Notes under the pieces: model-generated
Databases searched by the model: none
The model's input: the letters and a program-made list of their open reading frames with translations, nothing else
What the model was told of the DNA's origin: nothing
Position numbers and translations under genes: made by a program
Virus record (IMG/VR): IMGVR_UViG_3300034121_001926
Location: 1 to 46,570 of that record
DNA from: a virus
DNA length: 46,570 bases
Direction: 5' to 3' (one strand)
Shown: positions 1,073-46,515 of the stretch, in pieces
Numbering within the stretch: the stretch's first letter is position 1
Layout of the letters: every line of letters starts with the position of its first letter

Positions 1073-1128
1073 TGTCGCTAGTCCTATTCTTGATTATTGG
1101 AATCGTCAGTATGGGAAAACACCCATAT

Positions 1129-1147
1129 ACAGGCCTGTCAGGCCTGT
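1129..1147. repeat. Tandem CAGGCCTG palindromes upstream of the Gp88-like gene
   Basis: Two CAGGCCTG palindromes (1130-1137, 1139-1146) are separated by one T and form ACAGGCCTGTCAGGCCTGT. They lie 57 bp upstream of the leftward start at 1072, where an operator could sit. A further CAGGCCTG occurs at 1029-1036 inside the start of that gene, and related CAGGCC words form the ends of the junction palindromes. Confidence 0.5.
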
Positions 1148-1154
1148 TTCATCC

Positions 1155-1415
1155 TTAGTCGTATTTATGTTCGATCTGGAAAATACGTGTGTGAATAGCC
1201 TGAAGATCGATATCTGAGTGGATATCGGCGGATCCACCAATTAACACACTTTGAAGGAATATCAATTCCGCATAATCAGCCTTTATTTCAAGCTTTTTTT
1301 TATCGTCGGCATTATATGCTAACCAATTTATGGTGGTGCACTTTCCATTCAATGTTCTGTAAAGAAACAAAAAACCTTTGAAATTGACTAGATCGTATCG
1401 CGGCTGATTGTGCAT
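1155..1415 (-). CDS. Hypothetical protein, 86 aa
   Basis: I do not recognise this protein. The frame is open back to 1649, but the ATG at 1415 is chosen because AAGGGACGAACA precedes it and a good leftward promoter (1468-1495) lies just upstream, which excludes the longer form. The product is about 86 residues with mixed alpha/beta character, several aromatic residues and an acidic/histidine C-terminus. It has no signal peptide or obvious membrane segment. It is transcribed toward the Gp88-like gene and may share its mRNA. Confidence 0.6.
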   Translation of the reverse strand: MHNQPRYDLVNFKGFLFLYRTLNGKCTTINWLAYNADDKKKLEIKADYAELIFLQSVLIGGSADIHSDIDLQAIHTRIFQIEHKYD

Positions 1416-1445
1416 TGTTCGTCCCTTATTCAAAATGTTCGTTTC

Positions 1446-1495
1446 GGCGGACAATTCCGCCATCAGGATACTAACCACAATTCCAACAATGTCAA
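1446..1495 (-). promoter_or_regulatory. Leftward promoter with inverted-repeat operator
   Basis: On the minus strand, TTGACA (1495-1490) and TAGTAT (1473-1468) are separated by 16 bases. An inverted repeat GGCGGA-CAAT-TCCGCC (1446-1461) covers the predicted transcription start, the classic place for a repressor site. It would drive the 86-aa gene starting at 1415. Confidence 0.55.
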
Positions 1496-1555
1496 CGTTA
1501 TGAACTATGTTAAACAATTGCTTTAAGTACCTAAAAACAATGGTGTTCGATGGTA

Positions 1556-1648
1556 TGAGCCTCGGCCAGGAGGCTGGCCGTTTGAAGCTTGTCAACGCTC
1601 TGGCCCACGGGGCCGAGACTGGGCGAGGCTGACCTCTGGTCAGGCTCA
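1556..1648. ncRNA. Candidate structured RNA or cruciform element
   Basis: A compact GC-rich segment stands out in an AT-richer neighbourhood. TGAGCC (1556-1561) pairs with GGCTCA (1643-1648) as a closing stem. Inside are three hairpins: CGGCCAG-GAGG-CTGGCCG (1563-1580, 7 bp), CTC(T)GGCCC-ACG-GGGCCGAG (1598-1617, 8 bp with one bulge) and TGACC-TCT-GGTCA (1630-1642). This gives a cloverleaf-like fold. It is not a tRNA, because there is no T-loop consensus and no CCA-type acceptor. The loop of the first hairpin contains AGGAGG. Either strand could be the transcript. Confidence 0.4.
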
Positions 1649-1649
1649 A

Positions 1650-1830
1650 ATGCTGGCCTGTGCTGATCTGCTGGCCTGTGGGCCTGTGGCTTTATGAGTG
1701 GCAGTGTGTCAGCGTGTGGCTATGTGGCAGCGTGTGGCAGTGTAGAAACAGTGGCAGTATGTGACTACATGGCAAAATATGGCTATGTGGCAGTATGTGG
1801 CGTTATGTAAGTTACTGTGTGTTATGACGT
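1650..1830. repeat. Degenerate GTGGCAGT repeat tract with strong strand skew
   Basis: The plus strand is a run of near-repeats such as GTGGCAGTGTGT, GTGGCTATGTGG, GTGGCAGCGTGTGG, GTGGCAGTATGTG and GTGGCGTTATG. It is extremely G/T rich and is preceded by CTGGCCTGTG copies (1652-1692). No frame is convincing here. Together with the downstream dyads and iterons it makes the region look like a replication or regulatory locus. Another copy, GTGGCAGTGTGT, is at about 2140. Confidence 0.55.
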
Positions 1831-2211
1831 TATGGAACAATGTAGAAATCGTTAGTAGCGGGTTCTACATATTGTGAAAAAAAGTACAAAGTGCCAGGGT
1901 GATAGATCGGCCTGTTTTTGCGTGGGAAATGGTGGCAGGGGAGCGCATCTGGCAAGGTGACCTGTGATGCCGAATCCGGCAAGACGGGTGCGCTTCAGGT
2001 GGACGGTGCTGGGGCGAAAGATGGATGATAAAGGAATCTTTATAGTTTTGGGTAACCAAAACCTTGGTTGAGGAGAGGCTAAAGATGGGATGTGGGCAAG
2101 CTAAACTTAGGTTTTGGGGAGCCTGATTTTTTGATTTAGTGGCAGTGTGTCCATTATCACCCCGCTCTTGTGGATATCCCCTGATCTTGCCCCGTTGGTT
2201 CACCCTCTCTC
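1831..2211. other. Non-coding stretch, no convincing gene
   Basis: This stretch continues the repeat region. A leftward frame (1865-2203) is open, but its composition is unlike the phage's real genes and it lacks a Shine-Dalgarno sequence, so I do not call it. I see no further structure here. Confidence 0.4.
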
Positions 2212-2269
2212 AATCATCACCTAGTTGTGTATGATTCAGGGTTTAATCATCACCTGTTTGTGTATGATT
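2212..2269. repeat. Two 25-bp direct repeats, each an imperfect dyad
   Basis: The copies are at 2212-2236 and 2245-2269, exactly 33 bp apart, and differ at two bases. Each begins AATCAT and ends ATGATT, so each is also an inverted repeat with a 13-base spacer (CACCTAGTTGTGT or CACCTGTTTGTGT). Three helical turns between copies fits cooperative binding of a dimeric protein. Confidence 0.7.
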
Positions 2270-2337
2270 GATTGGGTAAGATAGGAAATCTCTGGCTTTC
2301 TCTCAAATCGCATCATGGATGATGGCTGAGAGTATGT

Positions 2338-2480
2338 CGGTATATACCGCTAGTCATCTTTCGGTATAGATCATATTTCGGTATAGACTATCTTTCGGTA
2401 TAGGTCATCTTATCAGGGTAATAACAATCTACATAATCCAAACATATAAACAACCGCTTATATATATAGTAACAGAAGGG
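2338..2480. other. Iteron array next to an AT-rich tract: candidate origin
   Basis: Three contiguous 17-bp repeats of the form TTTCGGTATAGATCATA lie at 2359-2375, 2376-2392 and 2393-2409. They are preceded by a perfect palindrome CGGTATATACCG (2338-2349) that carries the same CGGTATA core. An AT-rich stretch follows (2410-2480), with CTTATATATATAG near its end. Iterons beside an AT-rich unwinding tract are typical of theta-type phage and plasmid origins. The same layout would also fit an operator array, and no Rep initiator gene is recognisable. Confidence 0.6.
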
Positions 2481-2582
2481 ACTTCCCAGTGTCATAATAG
2501 TTCTTTTGTGGGGTTGATCCTGCTAGGGTGATTGAGAGATACTCGTTAAGAGTTATTAGCAATCAGTATTAGCTGGCAAACC

Positions 2583-2900
2583 TCAGCAACTGGCCCAGTT
2601 TGGGCCAAGAACCATTACCTGAGAAGAGGAAGGCATCTTGATCAGTACTTCGCTCACTGTTTTTGACAGGCAAGCCTGTATGACATGTTGACCGGGGCGT
2701 AGTCCCAATGCAGGATCAATCACCTGCCCGTTGCCCGGGAAACCTTCGGCCAGTTTGGCCGATGGAACAGCGTTTCGTAAGATCATCCGGCAGCTTGCCC
2801 ATCCGGCCAATTGCTCCATCAGGGGCTGCAAAGCCCTTGCCAGCAAATGGGTGGCTTTACCAAGATCGGTGGCAAGCTTAGCATCAATGTTATGCGACAT
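2583..2900 (-). CDS. Hypothetical protein, 105 aa
   Basis: I do not recognise this protein. The leftward frame uses codons like those of the surrounding real genes. Its ATG (2900) is preceded by AAGGATCGCCCA, and a good promoter lies upstream (3076-3104), so I prefer it over the overlapping rightward frames. It is helical at the N-terminus and has no membrane segment. Two hairpin-forming words lie inside the gene: CGGCCA-GTT-TGGCCG (2748-2762) and TGGCCCA-GTT-TGGGCCA (about 2591-2607). Its leader contains one copy of the two-hairpin element (2981-3028). Confidence 0.5.
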   Translation of the reverse strand: MSHNIDAKLATDLGKATHLLARALQPLMEQLAGWASCRMILRNAVPSAKLAEGFPGNGQVIDPALGLRPGQHVIQACLSKTVSEVLIKMPSSSQVMVLGPNWASC

Positions 2901-2980
2901 TGGGCGATCCTTGATCTTGGCAAAGGGTTTGGTCAGCCAATTATTGCCCTAGATCTTCGTGACCAAGGTACCAAATCGCT

Positions 2981-3028
2981 CAAGCCAGCCAAAGGCTGGC
3001 GAGATCTCGACCGCTTTGCGGTCTCGAG
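2981..3028 (-). repeat. Two-hairpin element, copy A (leader of the 105-aa gene)
   Basis: Read leftward, the element is CTCGAGACCG-CAAAG-CGGTCGAG (stem CTC..GACCG with a 2-base bulge), then ATCTC, then GCCAGCC-TTT-GGCTGGC. Copies B (44675-44728) and C (46221-46261) share the first hairpin but have different second hairpins that still pair. It sits between promoter 3076-3104 and the start codon at 2900, so it would be in the 5' leader. Confidence 0.75.
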
Positions 3029-3075
3029 CTACTAAGGGCTTAACTGGCTGGGAAACCTCTGTAGCGACACTACAC

Positions 3076-3104
3076 ACTATACCAAATGTCTACGCTTTCT
3101 ACAA
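3076..3104 (-). promoter_or_regulatory. Leftward sigma-70-like promoter
   Basis: On the minus strand, TTGTAG (3104-3099) and TATAGT (3081-3076) are 17 bases apart. A short inverted repeat GTAG-CGACA-CTAC (3061-3073) follows the -10. The promoter would serve the gene at 2583-2900. Confidence 0.5.
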
Positions 3105-3153
3105 GATATTTTTAAAGTTTTTAAACCTATCTGGCTAAGCACTTAGATCAAAG

Positions 3154-3218
3154 TCATGATCGACATGATACAAATAATCTGGACTAAGCGTTGACATTCT
3201 GGCGATATCGGTTATAGT
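3154..3218 (+). promoter_or_regulatory. Early rightward promoter with upstream operator-like word
   Basis: TTGACA (3191-3196), a 16-base spacer and TATAGT (3213-3218) precede the first gene of the rightward accessory run. The -35 is part of GCGTTGACAT, a variant of a word found in several intergenic gaps of this genome. TCATGATCGACA at 3154-3165 is repeated exactly at 12118-12129 inside another promoter region, which suggests a shared regulator. Confidence 0.65.
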
Positions 3219-3269
3219 ACTTTTAGTGACGGTGATGACGGTTAAGACCAGGACATAGGAGCTAGAGAA

Positions 3270-3539
3270 ATGTCGGTTTATCATCGATCAGTTTTGATTC
3301 AGACAGGCCTTGGGCCGACCGAGGTATACTTGCTTGAGGGGCCACATGTTTTGTACATCGGTGAAGTGTACGGCGTGTTTTCACGTTGGGAGGATTTGCT
3401 TGAGCATTGCGAGACAGGTGCAAATTTAGCAATTGGCATGATTTCGCATCGTTTCTTGACGGCTGAGCAAAGCGAAAATGGTCGTATGCATGCCACTCTG
3501 TTAGAGTGCAAATATGTCCCTCCAGTTGAACAACTTTGA
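3270..3539 (+). CDS. Hypothetical protein, 89 aa
   Basis: I do not recognise this protein. It is the first gene after promoter 3191-3218, with GGAGCTAGAGAA just before the ATG. It is a soluble, mixed alpha/beta product of 89 residues with no cysteine pairs or membrane helix. The next gene begins 17 bp downstream. As a promoter-proximal early gene it may act on the host, but that is only inferred from position. Confidence 0.75.
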   Translation: MSVYHRSVLIQTGLGPTEVYLLEGPHVLYIGEVYGVFSRWEDLLEHCETGANLAIGMISHRFLTAEQSENGRMHATLLECKYVPPVEQL

Positions 3540-3556
3540 GAATAGGAGCAAGAATC

Positions 3557-3754
3557 ATGAACGCAAGCGAATTTCAAGCACTGACCGTTGAAGGTGCCAG
3601 CCAGCTTAATCGCGAGCAATTGATCGCATTTCTGGTTTGGAATGACCGCAATGGGGTTTATACGGACGAGGATTGCGAGGCTGAAGGCTACGGCTTATTG
3701 ACTTTGGAAACGGCTCGGCTGTTGGTTGTCAAAGCAATTGAGGAGAGCGAATGA
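3557..3754 (+). CDS. Hypothetical protein, 65 aa
   Basis: I do not recognise this small acidic protein. The ATG at 3557 is chosen over the frame opening at 3536 because AGGAGCAAGAATC precedes it. The sequence is largely helical (NREQLIAFLVWND, then an acidic ETARLLVVKAIEESE tail). Its stop overlaps the next start (ATGA at 3751-3754), so translation of the methylase remnant is probably coupled to it. Confidence 0.72.
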   Translation: MNASEFQALTVEGASQLNREQLIAFLVWNDRNGVYTDEDCEAEGYGLLTLETARLLVVKAIEESE

Positions 3755-4035
3755 TGAAAGTGCTTGTTGCTTGCGAATATAGTGGCACGGTGCGTGATGC
3801 TTTCCTTGCTGCTGGTCATGATGCCAGCAAGAAGACTTGCTTGTGGTTGGTCGGTTTACCGCCATTGGTACCAACGCAGATCATTGAGCCACGGTTGATA
3901 GATGGCAAAAAGCGTTGGGCAAATCAGACCGATGGCGGCCAGAACAGGCTTGGGCCTAGCGATGATCGCTGGAAATTACGCAGCACCACATATTCTGGCA
4001 TTGCCAATGCAATGGCTGAGCAATGGGGGTCATGA
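3751..4035 (+). CDS. Internally deleted cytosine-methylase-like protein (probably broken)
   Basis: This is a 94-residue remnant. The N-terminus KVLVACEYSGTVRDAFLAAGHDA (residues 3-25) matches the SAM-binding start of a phage C5-cytosine methylase family. The C-terminus KKTCLWLVGLPPL ... RLGPSDDRW ... AMAEQWG matches the end of the same family. From memory, full-length members are about 200-250 residues and carry an HPPC-type catalytic motif and an EN-P motif between these parts. All of that is missing here. The join is in frame near residue 25, where an inverted repeat GCTGG-TCATGATG-CCAGC lies (3811-3828). It starts by an ATGA overlap and ends by another with the next small gene. Methylation activity is unlikely. 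Confidence 0.85.
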   Translation: MMKVLVACEYSGTVRDAFLAAGHDASKKTCLWLVGLPPLVPTQIIEPRLIDGKKRWANQTDGGQNRLGPSDDRWKLRSTTYSGIANAMAEQWGS

Positions 4036-4151
4036 TGCACTCAGGAGAGCATCTATTTTTGGCAGCGTATGGCTTATCGATTGTGCTGGTTTTTCGGCAT
4101 ATTGCCGAATCAAAACGGTTTTACAGGCAGTTGGGTCTAGGATCAAAATGA
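4032..4151 (+). CDS. Small single-pass membrane protein, 39 aa
   Basis: A short frame begins at an ATGA overlap with the methylase remnant. It encodes one hydrophobic helix, LFLAAYGLSIVLVF (about residues 8-21), followed by a basic segment (RHIAESKRFYRQ), so a C-in single-span topology is likely. Its stop codon lies inside the dispersed GGATCAAAATGATC palindrome. Function is unknown. Small early phage membrane proteins can be superinfection or lysis modulators, but nothing here proves that. Confidence 0.5.
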   Translation: MMHSGEHLFLAAYGLSIVLVFRHIAESKRFYRQLGLGSK

Positions 4152-4155
4152 TCTT
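4139..4155. repeat. Dispersed palindrome AGGATCAAAATGATCTT
   Basis: One of seven copies of a GGATCAAAATGATCC-type palindrome. This copy has one arm mismatch. It overlaps the stop of the 39-aa gene and precedes the 159-aa gene. Confidence 0.8.
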
Positions 4156-4201
4156 GACAATATGATGAGAGTGGTTTCCAAACACAGGAAAGAGGATTGA
4201 T

Positions 4202-5806: not shown

Positions 5807-5823
5807 AGGATCAAAATGATCCT
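5807..5823. repeat. Dispersed palindrome AGGATCAAAATGATCCT
   Basis: A perfect-arm copy of the seven-member palindrome family. It lies 23 bp before the start of the 84-aa gene. Confidence 0.85.
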
Positions 5824-22310: not shown

Positions 22311-24290
22311 TTATGCGTCCTTTACGAGAATATGGGTCAGTTCGTTCCCAGACTGCACGACATAGTCCGTTGTGATTCCAGGTACCATAGTATAATTGAT
22401 CGTGATGCGTATTTTGTAATAGCCTTTGGCCGTATATGTATGCGTAAAGGTTGTGCCGATTGTCGTGGCATTTTCGGTTGCTGAGCCATCTCCCCAGTCA
22501 ATGGTAACGCTATTCGGCGTTGCTATGTTTGATGGGATATTGGTGAATGACTTGATGACATAGGGGACATTTGTTTTGCCGACCGTTGTGATATAGATAC
22601 CGCATTTAGGCAGGTAATCCATGTTCTGATCGCCAAATGGCATGGCAATGGTCATGGCATCGTAGCGTTGCATAGGCGCACCTTCCTGATTTGGATCTTT
22701 TTCAGTGGATGGGATTGGCAAGCCACCACCATAGTTCGGGAAGATACTGTTGTCAGTTGGTCGCCATTTGATGGCATTGTTAAAGATCGTTGACCACCCC
22801 AGATAACCAGAGTCAGCCCTGCAAAAACACGATCCAACGATATGACCTTGATGCTTTATCTCGATATGCCCATAACTGTACTTATCACGTGTTTCTGGCA
22901 ACGTAAAAAGGATTCCGATGGATTTGGCGTAGTCTGGATTGCAGTCTCCCCCGTTTGTCTCATGGTTAGGGTCAAATGCGTGTACGGACTGCCTCTCTTG
23001 GGCTTTTGCATAAACGATGGCATCAGCAGGGGTGTCCAATAAATTGGAGCTATACGGCGATGTTCCAACAATAACCTTGTAAGGATCAGGAACTCTCTGC
23101 TTTAGTTGGCTATTAACAGGATCTGTTGGACGCTTTTTCCATAGCTTCAGCGTTGCGTCAAGGCTATATCGATCCAATCCGCTATTCGGGTTATTGTCGC
23201 ACCATTGGCCGATCCACCAGTGATGCTGGGCAGCAACTTCTATCGCGTTGTTGTAAACAATGTTGCCCTGCTGATCGAAGCTGTATGCTGCTGTTCCCTG
23301 CCCAAAAAAAGCGTCTTCACATGGCACTGGTTGACCTTCGTTATACCAAGTGACTGAATTGCCCGATCCCCAGAAAACAAAGTTCGGATCGTAGTGCTTC
23401 GACTTGATAACGTGATCGCCAAAATGAGCAAACCAACCCGATGTCCTGATTCTTATTCCTCGCATACCATCAAGAATAATCAATTTGTCTTGGCCGGGCA
23501 TGATGCTTATTTTGTCGTTTTCGCCCTCAGGCAACCAAGATCCACCCGTTGACCAATCGCCCATAATTGGCGTTCTGCCGTGCAGCCTGACTTTGCATCT
23601 CCCGGCCATGCTGAACCGCATCGTATGATTCAACGCAGGCTTGTCTTCGCCCTGCCATTGGGTATCACCGTGCCAACCGTAAAGATAGCTCATCGCAATC
23701 GGGCCGGGGAATGTATACGTGCCATATCCCTGAGTGAAATCGTTCATTCCACCACCACCCGGCAAGGTTGAGCCACCTGAGCCACCACCGTTGTTTCCAC
23801 CACCTGTCATGGAGTTCACCGCAACATAGGAGTTGCCTTCAAATTCTGGGATGCCTTTCCAGAGATAATCCAGGTTATAGAACTCTGCGCCTGTATGCAC
23901 GGGAGGATCAACCGATTGCGGTCTGTCATACCAGTAATCAACCAGATTGAGCCAATTGTTTCTTAGTTGGGGATCTGCTTCTGCCTGTTGGCTCGCATTC
24001 ACATCGACCTGCGCTGTATTCGCCATGGCTTGAAAATACCAACCAGAGTAACCTCGCACCCTGTGTATCTGACCATCAGTACCCATTACATCGCCAACGC
24101 GAAAATCCTGAACGTGGAAGACTTCATCGGGGTTGAAGATTGCCGGATTGGGATACCACTCACCCGTATCAGGATCTTTGAGATCCAAATAAACGAATTC
24201 CATCAGGCCGCCAAATCCATATTTGTAGCAAGGCCACTTGGGAGCAGTTGGGAATTTGCACCCTCTAGGAAAAAAAAAAGAGTTGACCAC
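22311..24290 (-). CDS. Tail tip protein with PKD-like C-terminus (second frame of a split gene)
   Basis: A large structural protein of up to 659 residues. The only in-frame start before residue 30 is a GTG at 24290 without a ribosome site, so it is probably made by slippage from the upstream frame at a T10 run (24279-24270); the fused product would be about 815 residues. A Gly/Asn/Ser-rich linker (TGGGNNGGGSGGSTLPGGGG, about 164-183) separates two parts. The C-terminus has TIDWGDGSATENA and FTHTYTAKGYYKI, a PKD/Ig-like beta domain that may bind the host surface. Two genes after the tape measure, it should form the tail tip or baseplate hub. Confidence 0.78.
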   Translation of the reverse strand: MVNSFFFPRGCKFPTAPKWPCYKYGFGGLMEFVYLDLKDPDTGEWYPNPAIFNPDEVFHVQDFRVGDVMGTDGQIHRVRGYSGWYFQAMANTAQVDVNASQQAEADPQLRNNWLNLVDYWYDRPQSVDPPVHTGAEFYNLDYLWKGIPEFEGNSYVAVNSMTGGGNNGGGSGGSTLPGGGGMNDFTQGYGTYTFPGPIAMSYLYGWHGDTQWQGEDKPALNHTMRFSMAGRCKVRLHGRTPIMGDWSTGGSWLPEGENDKISIMPGQDKLIILDGMRGIRIRTSGWFAHFGDHVIKSKHYDPNFVFWGSGNSVTWYNEGQPVPCEDAFFGQGTAAYSFDQQGNIVYNNAIEVAAQHHWWIGQWCDNNPNSGLDRYSLDATLKLWKKRPTDPVNSQLKQRVPDPYKVIVGTSPYSSNLLDTPADAIVYAKAQERQSVHAFDPNHETNGGDCNPDYAKSIGILFTLPETRDKYSYGHIEIKHQGHIVGSCFCRADSGYLGWSTIFNNAIKWRPTDNSIFPNYGGGLPIPSTEKDPNQEGAPMQRYDAMTIAMPFGDQNMDYLPKCGIYITTVGKTNVPYVIKSFTNIPSNIATPNSVTIDWGDGSATENATTIGTTFTHTYTAKGYYKIRITINYTMVPGITTDYVVQSGNELTHILVKDA

Positions 24291-44194: not shown

Positions 44195-44534
44195 GAATTA
44201 CCCCCCTGAATTCACCAGATACCCTAGTCCTCGTTATATTGGCATCCGTAAACGTCATCCACCATTTCCAACTACCCGCGCCTGCCAATGCCGTCTGCGT
44301 ATCCGACCATGTTGCGGTTACCTTGGAGCTAGCAATATCCTTGGCTATCGTTGCTTCGTATGTCGCATTCGATGTCTTCAAAACTGCTGAAAAAGTTGTA
44401 TTTGCAATATCTGCCGACAATGAATCACCACATGCTGAATTTGCCTTGGAAACGTAAACTTCAATGCTTACATCATCGCCAGCAACACAGGCAATATTCA
44501 AATTCGTGGGAAGCAAGTTTAGCTCTGGCATCAC
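44187..44534 (-). CDS. BppU-like baseplate/fibre-anchor protein, 115 aa
   Basis: A beta-sandwich protein (NIACVAGDDVSIEVYVSKAN, TTFSAVLKTSNATYEATI, GSWKWWMTFTDANITRTRVSG) resembling the N-terminal domain of BppU-type baseplate upper proteins. It lies between the portal and the collagen-like fibre with short overlaps, so it may anchor the fibres. Confidence 0.6.
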   Translation of the reverse strand: MMPELNLLPTNLNIACVAGDDVSIEVYVSKANSACGDSLSADIANTTFSAVLKTSNATYEATIAKDIASSKVTATWSDTQTALAGAGSWKWWMTFTDANITRTRVSGEFRGVIRG

Positions 44535-46132
44535 TCAACCTCCCCTTCATGTTGCTGCTGCGACAAGACAAACTCCAATGCCTCTAATTCTGCCAGAACT
44601 GACTCGTGTTCTGACATGCTATTCTTGAAAACATCATCATATAAGTCATCGTCATCATCACCTTCGCAATACTGCTCGAGACCGCTTGACGGTCGAGTTC
44701 TCGCACCCGTTGGGTGCGCTAGCTCGAGAGACTTATTAATCCCTGATCGGCTAGGACTCAAAGCGTCACTATTCCTTTCCCCTTCCAGTTTACTCCTCTC
44801 ATTACCATTCGCAGGAATCTTCACGCCACCCAGCTTATCGCCCTCACTTACCTTCCCACCCGCTGGCTGATCCAACCCTGCCGCCATCCTCGCCTTATCC
44901 TTTTCAATTCCCAGTAAATCGGCATCAGGACTGCCATTCGGCCCATAACCCACAATATCCCGAGACTCGTTCAAGGTACTAACACCCGCCTGGAACAACC
45001 GAATTGCCCGATTCGCAGCAACCTGTTCCCGATCATCCAACTCTTCAACAGGCGAATAATCCCACGAAAACTTGATCTTCCCTGCCCGAACCTCCTCAGG
45101 ATCCTCAAAATCAATCAACAACTGCTGCGTCATTTCCTCGGCAAACAACTTCTGCAACGGTATCAAGCCGTGTACATATGCTGCCCTGATTGCCTCTCCA
45201 TACGTCCCATAAGATCCCTTATCCACCGATATGCCTAAGACATCTGCATTCAACCCCATCGCCGCTAATACCACGGCCTGCGCGGGCCTTGCTATCGTTG
45301 ATAAGGCAACCTCCTCTGGCGTAAAACCCGCTTTCACCAAATCGTAACTACCACTCAATACTATCGGATCACCTCGCTTCGGCCCCGTTGAACTATCCTT
45401 CAAAACCTCCTTCACCCGTAAGGCATCCTCGGTGCTAATCGTGTAATCACCCTTGGGACTGGCAATCATGCCTGGTACACAGAAATTCGCCAGCAAACTA
45501 CACGTATATGTACTCGCCTCGTCTAACGTCGATATCTCGCGAATGGCACTACGCAAAGGACTCCAACCTAACCTGTCCTGGATCGGATCAATGTATTTGC
45601 GTGAGTAAATCACCCGGTCAGGTGGTACATCTAAATTAACGCCGTTGATGGCAACCTTCCATGCCGATAAATACTCAGACCCATCCGGTGGAAAAACTGC
45701 CGTCACTGCCATCGGATTCCAAGGCTTTAACTCAACAACATCTCCCAACCGATTGTAAACCTTCTCAATCCAACTATTCCCCGTACAACACATATCCCTG
45801 ATATATGTCCCACTAAATGCCTCGCCTCCAATATATTTCTGAGGGCGCGATATCAACGATAACGCAGGATGCCTGTGGATCGGTGTCTCAATCCCCTCTT
45901 CGTCTACCCGTACTATCTGCAACTGAGGTATATTCCAGTTCCGACTCAACCAGTCTATCCCACATGCTACCGTTGAATTCGTCCATAACCCGCGATCCAA
46001 TATCGGCTTGAAATCGTACTCGCTAGGACGGCCAAACCAAGAGAAAGTCTGGTGATTAATGCTCTGCCAACCATTGCTCCGATAAGGCGTGCGTCCTCGT
46101 ATAAATGATACCAAATTGTCGAACATGCCCAT
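44531..46132 (-). CDS. Portal protein, HK97 type
   Basis: A 533-residue portal. The ATG at 46132 is chosen because AGGGGGACTATCAC precedes it; the TTG at 46153 has no ribosome site. Key family features are RPSEYDFKPILDRGLWTNST (near 35-54), LKPWNPMAVTAVF, PPDRVIYSRKYIDP, GWSPLRSAIREI and a final helix-rich stretch. After about residue 420 the tail is low-complexity and acidic (EGDDDDDLYDDVF). Within this tail, residues 469-486 are encoded by the two-hairpin element, an in-frame 54-bp segment that looks like an insertion. Confidence 0.95.
   Translation of the reverse strand: MGMFDNLVSFIRGRTPYRSNGWQSINHQTFSWFGRPSEYDFKPILDRGLWTNSTVACGIDWLSRNWNIPQLQIVRVDEEGIETPIHRHPALSLISRPQKYIGGEAFSGTYIRDMCCTGNSWIEKVYNRLGDVVELKPWNPMAVTAVFPPDGSEYLSAWKVAINGVNLDVPPDRVIYSRKYIDPIQDRLGWSPLRSAIREISTLDEASTYTCSLLANFCVPGMIASPKGDYTISTEDALRVKEVLKDSSTGPKRGDPIVLSGSYDLVKAGFTPEEVALSTIARPAQAVVLAAMGLNADVLGISVDKGSYGTYGEAIRAAYVHGLIPLQKLFAEEMTQQLLIDFEDPEEVRAGKIKFSWDYSPVEELDDREQVAANRAIRLFQAGVSTLNESRDIVGYGPNGSPDADLLGIEKDKARMAAGLDQPAGGKVSEGDKLGGVKIPANGNERSKLEGERNSDALSPSRSGINKSLELAHPTGARTRPSSGLEQYCEGDDDDDLYDDVFKNSMSEHESVLAELEALEFVLSQQQHEGEVE
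44675..44728 (+). repeat. Two-hairpin element, copy B, in frame inside the portal gene
   Basis: CTCGAGACCG-CTTGA-CGGTCGAG, then TTCT, then CGCACCC-GTT-GGGTGCG, closed by a second CTCGAG. The 54 bp keep the reading frame and encode portal residues 469-486. The surrounding codons resume the acidic tail. Confidence 0.8.
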
Positions 46133-46162
46133 GTGATAGTCCCCCTGTTGCAAGGATGCACC

Positions 46163-46220: not shown

Positions 46221-46278
46221 CTCGAGACCGATTCTCGGTCGAGTTCTGCCCCTTTGGGGCAGGATCAAAATGATCCTG
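46221..46278 (+). repeat. Two-hairpin element, copy C, joined to a GGATC palindrome
   Basis: CTCGAGACCG-ATTCT-CGGTCGAG (46221-46243), TTC, then TGCCCC-TTT-GGGGCA (46247-46261), followed at once by GGATCAAAATGATCC (46262-46276). It is the only place where two dispersed families meet. Confidence 0.82.
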
Positions 46279-46443: not shown

Positions 46444-46515
46444 CAGGCCCTCCATGGAGGGCCTGTTGTGCTGCTGATGTATTCCAGCCTGTTCAGGCCC
46501 TCCATGGAGGGCCTG
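46444..46515. repeat. Junction palindromes (first copy, and overlap copy of the second)
   Basis: The third genomic copy of the 22-bp palindrome lies at 46444-46465. The copy at 46494-46515 is the same DNA as 43-64 because of the circular overlap. Confidence 0.85.

Follow-up and report, generated by a model that had tools for sequence, protein, structure and literature searches.

Palindromic elements that are read in frame within protein-coding genes occur in Wolbachia as well as in Rickettsia. The Rickettsia palindromic element has a reported size of about 150 bp and sits in frame in protein genes without breaking them (PMC10969869, PMC3733652). REPINs and the GTAG REP sequences, which RAYT (Y1) transposases mobilise, are short palindromes paired in inverted orientation, with compensatory changes in their stems, and they are mostly intergenic and sometimes intragenic (PMC3116915, PMC3733652). 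The mitochondrial hairpin elements, some of which are double, are dispersed and potentially mobile, lying mostly between genes and occasionally within them (PMC2800124). Regarding the prokaryotic MITEs, in-frame insertion is possible (PMC10969869) and the usual size is about 100-400 bp (PMC3116915).

Here we analysed a virus record of 46,570 bases (the window, by which we mean this whole stretch), which is probably a complete circular assembly because it has a 119-bp direct terminal repeat. We found in it three copies of a double-hairpin element, one of them in frame in the portal gene and the other two outside likely genes (Table 1). In the open-access literature we found no description of an element of this kind from a phage.

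The phage element shares with the REPINs the presence of two inverted palindromes per unit (strictly in copy 3, loosely in copy 2). However, the GTAG tag is not common to the copies, which are preceded by ACTG, AGAT and GTAG, the last at the 3028 copy only. Furthermore, there are three copies and not a high copy number, the second hairpin varies in sequence, the element is carried by a virus and the phage has no Y1 transposase (PF01797 was absent from G000, G001 and G002, and the control genomes matched). As in the Rickettsia element, to which the preliminary description had likened it, copy 1 is in frame in a protein gene that stays unbroken. Nevertheless, membership in that family is not supported: it measures about 48 bp, none of the three copies and their flanks reads a CGTC end, and there is no conserved peptide, since the portal copy is the one coding copy and two of the three are non-coding. 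The copies were inspected for both tags, GTAG and CGTC, and as neither characterizes them, we place the element in neither family; it may work like them. The mitochondrial double hairpins are alike in hairpin form, as far as their description goes, and belong to a different type of genome. Finally, the element is small and non-autonomous like the MITEs, but it is smaller than them, and no terminal inverted repeats accompanied by a target-site duplication are clearly recognizable in it.

Architecture and location of the copies

The element is built from two bulged hairpins on the plan CTC-RA-stem-loop-stem-GAG, which face each other head to head across a 2-base linker (TT or AT), and its length is about 42-50 bp across the three copies. 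All of them are double hairpins with unit 2 in inverted orientation. The consensus of unit 1 is CTC-GA-GACCG[C/A]-loop-[G/T]CGGTC-GAG, and the pattern of the first hairpin, CTCGAGACCG-N5-CGGTCGAG-[AT]TCT, is exact at 46221 on the plus strand and at 3028 on the minus strand besides the portal copy, as had been reported before for two non-coding sites.

Table 1. Positions in the window of the portal gene, the copies of the element and the adjoining features
Feature	Position	Strand	Basis or remark
Portal protein gene, 540 aa	44531..46153	minus	Pfam PF04860, PHROG 2662 and 12
Element copy 1, 48 bp = 16 codons, in frame in the portal gene	44675..44722	+	Structure-based comparison of the copies
Copy 1, hairpin unit 1, CTC-GA-GACCG-CTTGA-CGGTC-GAG	44675..44697	+	
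Copy 1, hairpin unit 2, inverted, CTC-GCACCC-GTT-GGGTGC-GC-TAG	44700..44722	+	
Closing CTCGAG, judged to be outside the element	44723..44728	+	Reads GTCAAA in G007; copies 2 and 3 lack it
Element copy 2, non-coding, about 70 bp upstream of the portal gene	46221..46262	+	Absent from G007 and G008
GATCAAAATGATC palindrome abutting copy 2; second repeat family, 7 copies	46263..46275	+	
Element copy 3, non-coding, CTC-GA-GACCGC-AAA-GCGGTC-GAG-AT-CTC-GCCAGCC-TTT-GGCTGGC-TT-GAG	2979..3028	minus	

The core of stem 1 and its asymmetric two-base GA bulge are identical in the three copies, which lie at unrelated sites, and the stem at 46221 shows one compensatory pair (C-G to A-T). Stem 2 has a different sequence in each of the three copies and always pairs perfectly, over 5-7 bp and with a loop of 3 nt, these pair counts being taken from a hand alignment that was built with the structure in mind and leans towards it. 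Actually, the reverse complement of unit 2 in copy 3 (CTC-AA-GCCAGCC-AAA-GGCTGGC-GAG) has the plan of unit 1, and in this copy CTC-RA-stem-loop-stem-GAG can be read on both strands. Unit 2 of copy 1 keeps the plan with two changes (CTA-GC instead of CTC-RA), and that of copy 2 follows it only loosely (CTGCCCC-TTT-GGGGCAG). A looser search for units of this form yielded 4 distinct ones, against 0.2 expected per shuffled genome, which rules out a chance origin of the units.

The region of the window that houses copy 3 (1100-4200) is gene-poor and has several tandem repeats and hairpins. Regarding copy 1, LELAHPTGARTRPSSGLE represents portal residues 476-493, encoded in frame by 44675-44728. The preliminary description was right about these coordinates and about the frame, and the 54 bp with CTCGAG at each end are indeed present. 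However, the limits that it drew at the CTCGAG motifs do not hold, because the closing CTCGAG, which neither of the other two sites has, reads GTCAAA in the 98%-identical portal of G007. Therefore, the 54-bp boundary is probably incidental; judged from the aligned copies, the element comprises about 48 bp (44675-44722), with the second hairpin as part of the repeated architecture. The sequence of copy 1 is identical in G008 and has one loop change in G007, where the unit 1 loop is CTTGG. Since this gives back a 6-bp stem with a 3-nt loop, the CTTGA of the window looks like a later change.

Comparison with relatives and the portal tail

IMG/VR contained three close relatives, whose metagenomes have different numbers: G001 (41 kb), G007 (8.6 kb) and G008 (4.1 kb). 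The window, G007 and G008 are almost equally related to each other (95.6-96.9%), whereas G001 is more distant (83-85% vs 93%). At the 46221 site G007 has no doublet but GAAGATC, a 6-base sequence and then directly the right flank, and G008 has a single GATC-type palindrome in its place. The left flank (181 bp) shows 3 differences in G007 and none in G008; the right flank (60 bp) is identical in G007, the one comparison that gives a valid figure for this side. Given the almost equal relatedness of the three genomes, one gain in the window lineage would be the simplest account, two losses being possible as well. With G008 as the empty site, the insert would be about 45 bp with a possible duplication of GATC, which is one reading of a variable stretch; no clear target-site duplication was seen at the other sites. 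At the 3009 site the whole doublet is present in the window and in G001, and in G007 there is unit 1 alone. Since both units are found in G001, the more distant genome, the best reading is that G007 lost unit 2.

The product of the ORF at 44531-46153 matched Phage_portal with residues 61-401 (E=5e-31), and the two PHROG portal families matched it too. All the homologues have a hydrophilic, variable tail. The predicted structure of the protein was too poor for use (mean pLDDT 32), and the portals of cultured phages, at about 25% identity, were too distant for judging the tail. The portal copy was found in all portals of more than 90% identity (window, G007 and G008), with no empty close allele among them. 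An assembly artefact is unlikely, because these are three independently named contigs. At about 60% identity (L029-L032), the alignment reaches residue 474-475 (SPSRSG[IV]NK[ST]) and then diverges, the end of homology coinciding with the edge of the element. LELAHPTGARTRPSSGLE is missing from the portals of 51-61% identity, of which the 51% record spans residues 5-287 only. Thus, the alignment of portal homologues that had been suggested as a check gives a divided answer: the 18 residues are missing at 51-61% identity, but every portal above 90% carries the element. On the other hand, none of the portals compared keeps these residues with other codons, a pattern that would have indicated ordinary coding sequence.

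Alignments were scored with and without the 18 residues in the window protein. The shorter L032 scored 166.5 with the residues deleted and 149.5 with them kept, whereas L029 and L030 scored 164.5 with the residues kept and 153 and 150, respectively, with them removed. The latter is due to an unrelated stretch of residues, similar in length, that the tails of L029-L031 carry at the position of the element. These alignments support an insertion where the conserved part ends; a precise insertion into an exact empty site falls short of proof, because the tails of the portals of 51-61% identity also differ.

Codons 1-475 show 64 changes between the window and G007, of which 60 are silent, and the 54 bp show 4, all of which alter the amino acid (Fisher p=9e-5). 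This substitution pattern is consistent with a freely varying linker. Nevertheless, the closing CTCGAG, which is not part of the 48-bp core, accounts for three of these four changes, and therefore the test speaks of a loosely constrained tail and not of the core alone. The portal tail of G007 (L005) also has a 1-base deletion relative to the window and G008, which changes the reading frame of the last residues; it reflects either a mistake in the assembly or, once more, the tolerance of the tail.

Outside these relatives, none of the host genomes, plasmids or other phage families searched carries the element. Among 84,980 species of bacteria and archaea, the strict scan gave 5 isolated chance-like matches, none with the second hairpin, and a host REP family was rejected on these grounds. 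Beyond the relatives, the strict scan of IMG/VR gave single matches that lack the second hairpin and come mostly from GC-rich contigs, and a search of annotated phages and plasmids at distant sensitivity was negative. Thus, the search of phage and host genomes proposed in the preliminary description, made here with strict and sensitive scans, recovered the hairpin in the relatives and elsewhere only as isolated single matches; divergent copies would be missed by the exact-pattern scans. The family appears to be restricted to the phage lineage of the window, or to hosts that are not represented. The host could not be identified by comparisons of terminase, helicase, ThyX and integrase.

Origin of the copies

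We favour, with moderate confidence, a small non-autonomous DNA element, a dispersed double hairpin copied to at least three sites in the phage lineage and tolerated in the portal tail. One copy of 48 bp (16 codons), whose frame is free of stops, would have landed behind residue 475 of the portal gene and would be tolerated there as a linker in the variable hydrophilic tail. We infer that movement of the element produced the copies and that the one in the portal gene was inserted there. The movement would most likely involve the hairpin in single-stranded DNA and a host-encoded enzyme of the RAYT/IS200 type acting in trans, or alternatively copying by the recombination and replication of the phage itself. 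Counting against a mobile element, there are only three copies and unit 2 varies, unlike both ends of a REPIN. The preliminary idea of a small mobile palindrome that enters genes is consistent with the dispersed copies and with their presence and absence in relatives, but an exact insertion of 54 bp and 18 residues is unsupported as it was put. Only tentatively would we go further and suggest a virus-borne mobile family of double hairpins with its own architecture, confined in its spread to a lineage, capable of entering essential structural genes in frame, and with a second hairpin that is exchanged or rebuilt without loss of the fold. If true, a hairpin doublet that varies in presence and absence in a compact phage genome, and of which one copy crosses an essential virion gene, would extend the protein-coding palindromes to viruses, and it would be a small system for following insertion, decay and tolerance in natural populations.

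We consider it unlikely that the copies are instead functional sites, that is, protein-binding or RNA-structure sites in regulation or replication, gained and lost under selection, the portal copy being an embedded one. The strong conservation of stem 1 with its bulge, the fold kept by compensatory changes, the location of copy 2 about 70 bp upstream of the structural-gene operon and the operator-like placement of another palindrome family, GATCAWWWTGATC, mostly just upstream of gene starts, all speak for such sites. However, copy 2 is missing in two very close relatives with intact flanks, half of copy 3 is missing in one relative and copy 1 lies inside a gene; besides, the hairpins match no Rfam family, and no T-run follows any copy on either strand, hence they are not intrinsic terminators. 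Mosaic recombination, where the palindromes would mark exchange joints and the portal tail and the upstream region would have been swapped in with their hairpins, seems to us quite improbable. It agrees with a portal tail that cannot be aligned between groups beyond residue 475 and with a segment between the 46221 flanks that is different in all three genomes, but identity returns within a few bases on either side of 46221, which fits a small indel better, and three copies at unrelated sites require copying and not exchange alone. Regarding ordinary portal coding sequence with a coincidental palindrome, the open ORF and a tail that is hydrophilic and variable in every homologue would suit it. 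Nevertheless, identical hairpins at two non-coding sites, the absence of these residues from all homologues of about 60% identity and the low chance expectation of such units leave it very little credit.

Other palindromes in the genome

The GATCAWWWTGATC palindrome, with a fuller form GAGGATCAAAATGATCCTC, has 7 copies in the window (4141, 5809, 14669, 19032, 32352, 33900 and 46263). Most of them lie shortly upstream of probable gene starts, and G001 lacks the ones at 5809 and 32352. This family looks like either the operator of a regulon or a second variable palindrome family. GATCAWWWTGATC is also found four times in an ORF of an unrelated GC-rich viral contig (L139, 870-1000), where it encodes RSEDQNDP/RSEDHFDP repeats, possibly as iterons within a replication-type gene.

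A hairpin at 2746-2762 of the window (TCGGCCA-GTT-TGGCCGA) is replaced in G001 by unrelated sequence of similar length between nearly identical flanks. In the ORF at 22311-24290 there is an 18-bp in-frame AACAGGATCTGTTGGACG (23115-23132), with a 5-bp stem and a 3-nt loop, which is absent in G001. Around the circular junction we found near-identical palindromes of 22-26 bp, CAGGCCCTCCATGGAGGGCCTG, at 41-66, 86-111 and 46444-46465 and in the terminal repeat. Finally, the end of G001 shows a different tandem hairpin, CTGCCAGCCC-TGA-GGGCTGGCAG, in five copies with a spacing of 51 bp.
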